Part shown: positions 17,157 to 20,254 of the stretch, piece after piece | How the letters are laid out: each line of letters begins with the position of its first letter | Position numbering within the stretch: the first letter of the stretch is position 1 | Assembly (NCBI GenBank): GCA_902595225.1 | Contig: CACJPG010000008.1 | Span: 1 to 39,835 of the forward strand | Origin: an uncultured Thiothrix sp. | GTDB lineage: Bacteria > Pseudomonadota > Gammaproteobacteria > Poriferisulfidales > GCA-002705445 | DNA length: 39,835 nt | Reading direction: 5' to 3' | Position numbers and translations under genes: made by a program | The notes under the pieces: model-generated | The model's database searches: none | What the model saw: only the letters and a program-made list of their open reading frames with translations | Told to the model about the DNA's origin: nothing

Positions 17157-18335
17157 ATGAAACTCTCACAGAGAATCGCAAACACAAAAACATCAGCGAC
17201 GATTGCGATGAGCATGAAAGCTCGAGAACTGAGATCGCAAGGCAAAGACATCATTTCCTTAAGTGCAGGTGAACCAGATTTTGAGACTCCGGAACATATT
17301 AAAGAAGCCGCAATAAATTCCATTAATTCTGGAAATACAAAATATACGCCTGTAGATGGTATGGTTGACTTGAAAGAATCAATTATTAAGAAATTCAAAA
17401 ACGAGAACCGACTTGAATATAAGTTAAATCAAATCATTGTATCTACTGGTTGCAAACAAAGTATTTATAATTTATGTCAAGCAACTCTTAATAAGAGTGA
17501 TGAGGTTTTAATACCAGCTCCATATTGGGTATCATATCCAGAAATTGTAAAACTATCAGATGCAAATCCTGTTTTTGTTGAAACAAACAGTGAAACTGAT
17601 TTTAAAGTTTCGGGTAAGATGATATCTGAAAGAATTACAGATAAAACAAGAATGATTCTTCTTAATAGCCCTTCAAATCCATCCGGATTCATATACACAG
17701 AAGATGAGTTGAAGGACATTGGGAAAGTTTTAAAAAATTATCCAGATATTATTATCGCATCTGATGACATATATGAACATATAATCTTCAATGAAAAAAA
17801 ATTCTATAATATTTTAAATGTCTGTCCTGAGCTTTTTAATCAAACAGTTGTATTGAATGGTGTTTCGAAAGCATATGCTATGACAGGCTGGAGGATAGGA
17901 TATGCTGCAGGAAATTCAGACATCATTGGAGCAATGAAAAAAATTCAGTCACAAAGTACCTCATGTACTTGCTCTATTGCACAATCTGCAGCTAAAGCAG
18001 CTTTGGATAATGGAAAACTAAAAGTTGATGATATGGTAAAAGAATATCAAGCAAGAAATGAGTTTCTCCATAAAGAATTAAATGATATTGATGGCTTTAA
18101 TTATAAAAAACCTGACGGTTCTTTTTATGCCTTTGTAGATGTTAATGGGGTAATTAAAAAAATTAAAGGAGTAAATGATGATTTTGATCTTGCTGAATAC
18201 TTCTTATTGAATGCAGATGTAGCTGTAGTGCCTGGAACTGCTTTTGGAGCAAAAAACCATATTCGAATATCTTTTGCGACAAGCTTTGAAAATCTTAAAC
18301 AGGCAGTAGAAAGAATAAAAAAAGTTTTAGTCTAA
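17157..18335 (+). CDS. aspC: Class I aminotransferase, aspartate/prephenate type
   Basis: PLP-dependent aminotransferase of 392 residues. Signatures: SAGEPDFETPEHI (36-48), TKYTPVDGM, SPSNPSG (171-177), the PLP Lys238 in GVSKAYAMTGWRIGYA and the C-terminal substrate Arg in HIRISFATS. This is subgroup I-beta, common outside the enteric bacteria; some members also transaminate prephenate to arogenate. It may therefore cover aromatic amino-acid transamination, since the hisC-type gene usual between pheA and tyrA is absent from this window. The ATG at 17157 has no clear ribosome site. The gene overlaps the convergent DUF3050 gene by 9 bases. Confidence 0.92.
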   Translation: MKLSQRIANTKTSATIAMSMKARELRSQGKDIISLSAGEPDFETPEHIKEAAINSINSGNTKYTPVDGMVDLKESIIKKFKNENRLEYKLNQIIVSTGCKQSIYNLCQATLNKSDEVLIPAPYWVSYPEIVKLSDANPVFVETNSETDFKVSGKMISERITDKTRMILLNSPSNPSGFIYTEDELKDIGKVLKNYPDIIIASDDIYEHIIFNEKKFYNILNVCPELFNQTVVLNGVSKAYAMTGWRIGYAAGNSDIIGAMKKIQSQSTSCTCSIAQSAAKAALDNGKLKVDDMVKEYQARNEFLHKELNDIDGFNYKKPDGSFYAFVDVNGVIKKIKGVNDDFDLAEYFLLNADVAVVPGTAFGAKNHIRISFATSFENLKQAVERIKKVLV

Positions 18336-19094
18336 GTCTCTTATTTTCTTGTAAACCCCATCCCATAAATTAATTCTGCTTTCAATTGCTTTGATAGCAA
18401 AACTAATTGCTTCATCAAAGATTTTCTGGTCATTATTACAAGTGAAATTAAATAATTCTAGAGATAAAGGACCATGCCTAGAACTATCAACCTCAATATG
18501 TCTATTTATATATAACCTCAAGTTGGTATATTTTTTATCGTTCTTATCTATCTTATTCAATATTTTAGTAAACATTTCAGGAATTGTGGTTTCTCTCCCA
18601 TATGTAAATATTGCTGCTATATTTGGTAATTTTTTTGATTTAATACAATTAAATGTATTTTCAATAAATTCAAAGCTTTCTTTCGGTGGTTCCGTTAAGC
18701 TCTCCTCCTGCTTATCAAAGTCCTTAACAAACTTAAGAATTTTACTACTATCTGCGCCAACATCATTCATTGCGCACAAATACAAATCAAAATGCGAAAA
18801 ATAATTCCCATTTTCATCAACGTCTGACTCTTCGGAAAATACAATCTCGTTTATAAGATGAGCTATACCATTTTTTGTGTATTTGCTTGGCATCCATGGA
18901 TATCTTGAAGGACAAATAGTATTTTGAAGAGCCTTTACAATACTCATAAAATCCCAAACCGCATATACATGATATTCCATAAAGATCTTAAGCTCTCTAT
19001 GAGTAAAATTTTCACCCTCTTCAAATAGTTTGTGCGAATTTAATTCAGATATCTTTTTTTTCAGTTTTAGAAAATCTTTTGTATTAGTTTCCAT
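18327..19094 (-). CDS. DUF3050 family protein, possible haem-oxygenase-like fold
   Basis: A 255-residue, mostly helical soluble protein that I assign to DUF3050 from YHVYAVWDFM (41-50), LINEIVFSEESD (80-91) and the late motif NRHIEVDSSRHGPLS (197-211). No function is established for the family. I recall it being grouped with haem-oxygenase-like folds. His199, Asp203 and His207 are spaced i, i+4, i+8 on one helix; with His42, Glu83 or Glu88/89 they could form a metal site like that of haem-oxygenase-like di-iron oxidases. That is inference only. No signal peptide is present. It appears monocistronic, with an 8-base-arm inverted repeat 35-59 bases upstream of its start, and its end overlaps the aminotransferase gene by 9 bases. 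Confidence 0.8.
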   Translation of the reverse strand: METNTKDFLKLKKKISELNSHKLFEEGENFTHRELKIFMEYHVYAVWDFMSIVKALQNTICPSRYPWMPSKYTKNGIAHLINEIVFSEESDVDENGNYFSHFDLYLCAMNDVGADSSKILKFVKDFDKQEESLTEPPKESFEFIENTFNCIKSKKLPNIAAIFTYGRETTIPEMFTKILNKIDKNDKKYTNLRLYINRHIEVDSSRHGPLSLELFNFTCNNDQKIFDEAISFAIKAIESRINLWDGVYKKIRDLD

Positions 19095-19293: not shown

Positions 19294-19369
19294 TCCCCTG
19301 TAGCTCAGTTGGTAGAGCGGGTGACTGTTAATCACTAGGTCGGCGGTTCGAGCCCGTCCGGGGGAGCCA
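19294..19369 (+). tRNA. tRNA-Asn (anticodon GUU), CCA encoded
   Basis: A complete 76-base cloverleaf. The 7-bp acceptor stem pairs TCCCCTG with CGGGGGA, followed by discriminator G and an encoded CCA. The D arm is GCTC/GAGC. The anticodon stem GGTGA/TCACT encloses loop CTGTTAA, with anticodon GTT at positions 34-36. The variable loop is AGGTC, and the T arm GGCGG/CCGTC encloses TTCGAGC. Only three bases separate its 3' end from the stop codon of galU on the opposite strand. Confidence 0.98.
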
Positions 19370-19372
19370 GTT

Positions 19373-20254
19373 TTAGCTTAAATCAAGATTTTTAAGATAG
19401 TCCTTTAAATCCTTAGAAAGTTCTCCATGATGCAGTCCATATTCAATAGTAGCCTTTAGAAAACCAAGTTTATTTCCACAGTCAAACCTTTTACCTTCAA
19501 ACTCATATGCATATACCTTTTCCTTTGTGATTTGACTTGCAAGGGCGTCAGTGAGTTGAATTTCTTCTCCAGCACCTTTTTTTGTGTTCTCTAAAATATC
19601 AAAAATTGATTCATTTAGAATATACCTTCCCACAACACCCATATCGCTTGGAGCTTTTTCGATCTCCGGCTTTTCAACAATATTTTTTAACTCCCAATCA
19701 CTTTGATTTATTTTTGAGCCTTGAATTATTCCATATTTATGAAGATATTCTTTCTTAACTTTTTCTACTGCAATGATGCTTGAATTCAATTCAATATATT
19801 TTTCTGCCATTTGCTTTAAGCACCCATTAGTTTTTGAAAGTATCATATCGTCAGCAAGTATTACAGCAAAAGGATTATTACCTACAGCAGGCTTTGCACA
19901 TAGTACAGCATGACCAAGTCCTAGTGCTTGATTTTGTCTTATGTAAATGCATTTAATGTTTGAAGGTAATACATTTACTAATTCAAGTTCTTTTGTTTTT
20001 TTTCTCCTCTCAAGCTCAGTTTCTATTTCATAAGCTTTATCAAAATGGTTTGGTATACTAAATTTGTTTCTGCCTGTGATAAAAATTAGAGTTTCAATAC
20101 CAGCATCTACTGCTTCTTCAGCAGCATACTGTATTAAGGGCTTATCAACAATTGGTAACATTTCTTTTGGACTTGCTTTTGTGGCAGGAAGAAAACGCGT
20201 GCCCATACCAGCAACTGGAAAAACTGCTATTTTTATTTGATTATTGCTACTCAT
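19373..20254 (-). CDS. galU: UTP-glucose-1-phosphate uridylyltransferase GalU
   Basis: Makes UDP-glucose from UTP and glucose-1-phosphate for lipopolysaccharide and other glycan synthesis. The nucleotidyltransferase signature is AGMGTRFLPATKASPKEMLP (15-34), with the catalytic region continuing IVDKPLIQY; later elements include LADDMI (metal/uridine binding), GIIQG and RFDCGNKLGFL. Length of 293 residues is normal. It sits three bases after pyrF and is the last gene of the eleven-gene leftward run from gyrA. No terminator hairpin fits in the three bases before the opposing tRNA gene. Confidence 0.96.
   Translation of the reverse strand: MSSNNQIKIAVFPVAGMGTRFLPATKASPKEMLPIVDKPLIQYAAEEAVDAGIETLIFITGRNKFSIPNHFDKAYEIETELERRKKTKELELVNVLPSNIKCIYIRQNQALGLGHAVLCAKPAVGNNPFAVILADDMILSKTNGCLKQMAEKYIELNSSIIAVEKVKKEYLHKYGIIQGSKINQSDWELKNIVEKPEIEKAPSDMGVVGRYILNESIFDILENTKKGAGEEIQLTDALASQITKEKVYAYEFEGKRFDCGNKLGFLKATIEYGLHHGELSKDLKDYLKNLDLS

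Follow-up and report, generated by a model that had tools for sequence, protein, structure and literature searches.

Heme-oxygenase-like di-metal oxidases and oxygenases (HDOs) carry out many kinds of unusual oxidation, and no more than about a dozen of these enzymes are described as characterised (PMC13108848). In the account given there, the enzymes bind two Fe, or Fe/Mn; once reduced, the site reacts with O2 to give a peroxo species, and a bound small molecule is oxidised (PMC13108848). DUF3050 (PF11251) was placed in the heme-oxygenase-like superfamily in 2015 by several methods and modelled on CADD (1RCW); the di-iron ligands listed were Glu93, His105, Glu177, His207, Asp211 and His215, and Pfam clan CL0230 is noted for the family in the same paper (PMC4520260). 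The reading of DUF3050 as a di-metal oxidase is therefore not new, and this paper was the only one returned by our literature search for PF11251. Individual members are described in different settings: MgoB, a DUF3050 protein, belongs to the mgo operon of Pseudomonas syringae, and its insertion mutant produces slightly less mangotoxin (PMC3298696); the ham/pvf clusters have HamA/PvfA as their haem-oxygenase-like gene, presented as of unproven role (PMC11659414, PMC10194917, PMC11705231); and a DUF3050 gene appears in the Nit1C cluster figure of a 2022 metagenome paper (PMC9716671). One DUF3050 structure is solved, PDB 9vwb (2025), whose title names HamA 'a Heme-Oxygenase-Like Enzyme'. We read it as the HamA of the fragin/valdiazen ham cluster; our literature search found no paper on this structure. 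DtpC of Acinetobacter is an HDO-like protein that acts outside a biosynthetic pathway, and Ala mutants of three of its predicted ligands lose function (PMC13232832, which mentions no DUF); it is likened to the protein studied here by description, not by sequence. Beyond the published assignment, this work corrects the ligand list, gives evidence against two particular functions and draws attention to 9VWB.

Gene, family and invariant residues

The window, that is, the whole stretch of 39,835 nucleotides analysed, contains an uninterrupted DUF3050 ORF of 255 aa (Table 1). The initial annotation had placed it correctly; its coordinates need only be assigned to the minus strand, the plus strand being full of stops there. 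The encoded protein (P0001) matches PF11251 with E 8.4e-76 and 255.1 bits, against a curated cut-off of 22.2, over profile positions 1-233 of 233. No NCBIfam match was found for it, and in a Pfam search at E 10 this protein alone matches DUF3050 only and not PF14518. The DUF3050 gene and its tail-to-tail neighbour share 9 nt (18327-18335). From their sequences, we take this neighbour to be an aspC-like aminotransferase gene and the gene beyond the tRNA-Asn to be galU-like.

Table 1. Coordinates of the DUF3050 gene, its neighbours and the codons of selected residues in the window
Feature	Position	Strand	Basis
DUF3050 (PF11251) gene, heme-oxygenase-like fold, 255 aa	18327..19094	-	ORF, Pfam match, AlphaFold2 model
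aspC-like aminotransferase gene (presumed), tail-to-tail neighbour	17157..18335	+	context
tRNA-Asn, between DUF3050 gene and galU	19294..19369	+	context
galU-like gene (presumed), conserved neighbour	19373..20254	-	context
H42 codon, invariant, auxiliary helix 32-60, non-canonical ligand position	18969..18971	-	model, 111-protein alignment
D48 codon, invariant, candidate, near SznF/RohS seventh-ligand position	18951..18953	-	helix 32-60 (model), 111-protein alignment
E88 codon, carboxylate ligand predicted on core helix 1 (= CADD E81)	18831..18833	-	invariant 111/111; common to CADD-like proteins
H101 codon, His ligand predicted on core helix 1 (= CADD H88)	18792..18794	-	invariant 111/111; CADD-like alignment
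E168 codon, carboxylate ligand predicted on core helix 2 (= CADD E142)	18591..18593	-	invariant 111/111; CADD-like alignment
Y195 codon, invariant, four positions ahead of H199 (= CADD Y170)	18510..18512	-	invariant 111/111
H199 codon, predicted core-helix-3 ligand (= CADD H174)	18498..18500	-	invariant 111/111; CADD-like alignment
D203 codon, predicted core-helix-3 ligand (= CADD D178)	18486..18488	-	invariant 111/111; CADD-like alignment
H207 codon, predicted core-helix-3 ligand (= CADD H181)	18474..18476	-	invariant 111/111; CADD-like alignment

The family alignment contains 111 proteins: 31 were found with the HMM and 80 through a pattern scan, the latter being the best 80 of 590 confirmed candidates, which lean towards close relatives. 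The scan patterns preselect the stretches around H42-D48 and H199-D203; the 31 HMM-found proteins, which are free of this bias, show the same invariant positions as the 111. A second alignment, of 107 proteins, omits L003 and L021 because of the motif filter and L028 and L031 because of masked letters; the set of 111 includes these four. Since the lowest pairwise identity among the 111 proteins is 28%, invariance is informative. Exactly four His (42, 101, 199 and 207), three Asp (48, 91 and 203) and three Glu (88, 89 and 168) are invariant in 111/111, together with K54, R167, R198, R240, Y105 and Y195. The window protein has seven His, four of them invariant and three of these four at canonical ligand positions. 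The conservation of the candidate residues is far beyond chance.

His199, Asp203 and His207, which the initial annotation had noted on one helix, are indeed found on a single helix of the model (residues 187-219), at spacing i, i+4 and i+8. Its candidates in earlier helices fared unequally: H42, E88 and E89 are invariant, and E83 is variable, with E in 96/111 proteins and D, H, Q, N or S in the others. Taken as a ligand list, this first proposal keeps H199, D203, H207 and E88, loses E83, places H42 at a non-canonical position and had left out the invariant H101 and E168. Non-conservation, named beforehand as evidence against the idea, was found in the 111-protein alignment for E83 only.

Predicted fold and ligand set

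The AlphaFold2 model of the window protein, obtained from an input alignment of 65 sequences (the window protein and 64 of the 80 scan loci), has a pLDDT of 93.7 and a pTM of 0.90. Its best Foldseek match is 9vwb (E 2e-13, 34% identity), followed by CtCADD, a TenA-like archaeal protein, PolF and UndA; HrmI was also matched. The VIA Z scores are 30.1 for HamA (rmsd 2.0 A over 242 residues), 20.8 for HrmI, 20.1 for CADD, 20.0 for UndA, 19.1 for each of PqqC and FlcD and 16-18 for TenA, in a list where the absence of MboA, AetD and SznF carries no meaning. The structural comparison with UndA and CADD thus gives the same fold, with Z about 20. HamA belongs to the same Pfam family as the window protein and shares with it the set H, D, E, E, H, E, Y, H, D, H, which in HamA corresponds to H40, D46, E84, E85, H96, E168, Y195, H199, D203 and H207.

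The fold alone is no proof of a metal site, because the metal-free proteins PqqC and TenA score close to the HDOs. Their chains align nearly as well (Z 19.1 and 16-18), as would be expected if the window protein were a metal-free member of this fold whose conserved acids and His do acid-base chemistry. This reading is nevertheless improbable: the six HDO ligands are invariant in 111/111 and aligned with those of CADD-like proteins, PqqC-like proteins (e.g. L116-L123) differ, by eye, at the core-helix-3 motif, and the best structural matches by Foldseek are HamA and CADD. The ligand set, unlike the fold alone, does separate metal HDOs from metal-free PqqC and TenA.

The joint alignment that defines this set contains 13 proteins, including the CADD-like L112, L113 and L114, and shows ten invariant columns: V46, P66, E88, E89, H101, E168, P172, H199, D203 and H207. 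Seven of the ten are acids or His, namely the six HDO ligands and E89. When L112 is aligned to 1rcw, the shared columns fall on CADD E81, E82, H88, E142, H174, D178 and H181; the CADD ligand numbers agree with the motif and with the 2015 scheme. DUF3050 and the CADD-like proteins match in profile-profile comparison with E 4.8e-6 (3e-4 with a larger alignment), in the same register as the joint alignment. PF14518, 'Iron-containing redox enzyme', is matched by 57/65 DUF3050 members (best 1.3e-12) and the CADD model by 7/65 (best 1.6e-4). Profile comparisons of DUF3050 with other PF14518 groups were insignificant (E 0.18 for group A4, and 0.19). A mixed profile of DUF3050 and CADD-like proteins, compared with the PDB, matched BesC (5.6e-4), UndA (1.8e-3) and, weakly, SznF (1.6). 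E88, H101, E168, H199, D203 and H207 are, as predicted from these alignments, the canonical 3-His/3-carboxylate ligand set of an HDO.

The window protein resembles CADD/NePabS (1rcw, 8va9 and 9pj4) in the fold, the six predicted metal ligands, the loop-broken core helix 1 and a Tyr four residues ahead of the first core-helix-3 His. In the model, helix 77-89 ends at E88/E89 and the next helix begins at H101; at the corresponding place a loop is described as breaking core helix 1 of CADD and of SznF, and only a kink is described for AetD, UndA and BesC (PMC11611611). DUF3050 differs from CADD in about a dozen inserted residues ahead of core helix 1, in the extra invariant D48 and D91, and in the core-helix-3 motif, which is one residue longer (HxxxDxxxH, H199-x3-D203-x3-H207) than the HxxxDxxH of CADD. 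The ligands of MboA are H172, D176 and H181 (PMC13185094), so this spacing varies among HDOs. HrmI, UndA, PolF and BesC show the same fold, and the 3-His/3-carboxylate scheme predicted in DUF3050 is that of UndA, BesC, HrmI, PolF and MboA (PMC13108848, PMC13185094); these five differ from it in their ligand spacing, with an identity of about 10-12%, and MboA is absent from the structure rows.

The proposal of the initial annotation that this is a haem-oxygenase-like di-metal oxidase is thus backed by the predicted fold, by CADD-like/Haem_oxygenas_2 sequence homology and by the invariant six-ligand set, and on the strength of sequence and model the window gene very probably encodes an HDO. Its annotation was corrected to 'DUF3050, predicted heme-oxygenase-like di-metal oxidase'. 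By fold and homology, the protein would be a bundle of seven helices with two Fe, or Fe/Mn, bound by E88 and H101 from core helix 1 (which the loop at 90-100 interrupts), by E168 from core helix 2 and by H199, D203 and H207 from core helix 3. As in characterised HDOs, the reduced site would react with O2 to form a peroxo-bridged di-metal(III) species, and this species would oxidise a small substrate in the central cavity. K54, R167, R198, R240, Y105 and Y195, singled out by their invariance, may shape the pocket and bind the substrate, or may serve radical chemistry. The charges of K54, R167, R198 and R240 suggest a small, anionic or zwitterionic substrate, such as an amino acid derivative. 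With ligand and pocket residues listed, targeted mutants are possible.

Additional invariant acids and histidine

Besides the six predicted ligands, an extra Asp/His pair, D48 and H42, is invariant on the auxiliary helix 32-60. A His is also found at the H42 column in two of the three CADD-like rows, so H42 is not special to DUF3050. SznF and RohS, which are 3-His/4-carboxylate N-oxygenases, have an auxiliary-helix Glu as seventh ligand (E189 in SznF and E93 in RohS; PMC11611611, PMC13108848), and SznF resembles DUF3050 in its loop-broken core helix 1. D48 is an Asp 40 positions ahead of the core-helix-1 carboxylate, whereas in SznF the seventh ligand is a Glu 26 positions ahead of that carboxylate, presumably E215. 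From alignment and model, D48 could be a candidate for a position near the seventh-ligand place of SznF/RohS, on the hypothesis that a DUF3050-specific loop (about 61-76) absorbs the extra residues. Profile alignments of DUF3050 to the PF14518 proteins of group A6, in which D and E are 26 residues apart, miss the D48 helix.

Two PF14518 proteins of about 465 aa (L167 and L168) show a D-G-A-W motif 26 residues before the invariant Glu, the same spacing as between E189 and E215 of SznF; a sequence search of L167 against the PDB found no HDO. Two other long PF14518 proteins (L169 and L173) seemingly contain two tandem HDO-like domains, the first apparently, by eye, without some of the ligands.

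One could speculate, as a possibility that we consider doubtful, that DUF3050 forms its own HDO subclass, in which D48/H42 of the auxiliary helix and E89/D91 next to core helix 1 give a 3-His/4-carboxylate or histidine-enriched site, and whose stand-alone members, found in Bacteroidota as well as in this reduced genome of about 1 Mb, act on a common metabolite unrelated to diazeniumdiolate pathways.

Distribution, gene order and possible reactions

The genome of the window is about 1.0 Mb, 84% complete, and contains one DUF3050 copy. Counting this genome, DUF3050 is carried by 9/11 genomes of the genus, 10/20 of the order and 21/299 of the sampled phylum. The gene order uvrB-aspC-DUF3050 (gene names presumed) is kept in all nine family relatives fetched, with galU also present in eight; the ninth locus is cut at the contig end. 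A close relative, G301 (L177), shows aspC-tRNA-Asn-galU without DUF3050, through loss or as an older empty site, and the gene is therefore dispensable there, being absent amid the kept gene order. For G302, where no full galU was found, the absence of DUF3050 allows no inference. No conserved functional operon was found: the neighbours in the 80 scanned loci depend on the lineage, and no partner stood out among gene calls that were mechanical and gave no DUF3050 call in L039, L041 and L097.

The closest solved structure being HamA, of the same Pfam family at 34% identity, the window gene might be thought an orthologue of MgoB/PvfA/HamA that serves a diazeniumdiolate signal pathway of the valdiazen or leudiazen type. 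HamA works alongside an AurF-like N-oxygenase and an NRPS of the same cluster (PMC11659414), whereas the window gene is stand-alone. No AurF N-oxygenase was found in any of the 20 genomes of the order, including its own (84% complete), and in the phylum sample AurF lies beside DUF3050 in only three of the 20 other carriers (G130, G237 and G286). In the tree, which is without HamA itself, the window clade (10 rows and L032) is a long branch with support 100/99, apart from the AurF-linked clade (100/99). Such a role is very unlikely, and a HamA-type pathway in this genome was rejected on the absence of AurF across the order. The window HDO would then act alone, without the N-oxygenase partner of its MgoB/HamA-type relatives. 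As DUF3050 is widespread, conserved and mostly outside biosynthetic clusters in the sampled loci, what is in question is an ordinary cellular reaction.

CADD, the second-best family by Foldseek, sacrifices its own Tyr27, with Lys152 as the amine donor (PMC11965152), and 92/111 DUF3050 proteins have a Tyr at the Tyr27 position, as a self-sacrificing p-aminobenzoate synthase of the CADD/PabS type would. In the window clade this position is a Phe (F24), and the Lys152 position corresponds to I178, with I, L, M, V or F in 107/107 proteins and no Lys. The window genome also has its own pabB (366.8 bits, above the cut-off), as do 19/20 genomes of the order at that cut-off. On F24, I178 and this pabB, p-aminobenzoate synthesis was rejected for the window protein, for which it is most improbable. 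The codon of residue 24 is at 19023-19025 on the minus strand, and Phe is found there in 17/111 proteins, the window genus and the AurF-linked rows being included in the count.

Heme degradation or binding by a true heme oxygenase, suggested by the common fold and by a ferrochelatase-like gene directly upstream in Allomuricauda and Maribacter, has hardly any probability, against an invariant and complete predicted di-metal ligand set, a Foldseek rank of only 48 for HmuO and the restriction of that neighbour to a few flavobacteria.

For the predicted HDO, our best guess at the chemistry, and a tentative one, is oxidation at nitrogen, because HrmI has the top Z outside DUF3050 (tied with CADD and UndA), the helix break is SznF-like and the context of HamA points the same way; these are loose analogies, none of them strong.

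Two arrangements recur among the flavobacterial loci, with neighbours that we name from their sequences. In some flavobacteria (Allomuricauda and Maribacter; L041, L045, L049, L079 and L099), DUF3050 is directly downstream of a presumably ferrochelatase-like gene. In relatives of Winogradskyella and Olleya (L033, L034, L035, L037, L042, L044, L052, L055, L064, L070, L075 and L085), DUF3050 is directly 3' of what we take to be a methionine-aminopeptidase-like gene, and in most of these loci a presumed methyltransferase-like gene is next after DUF3050.
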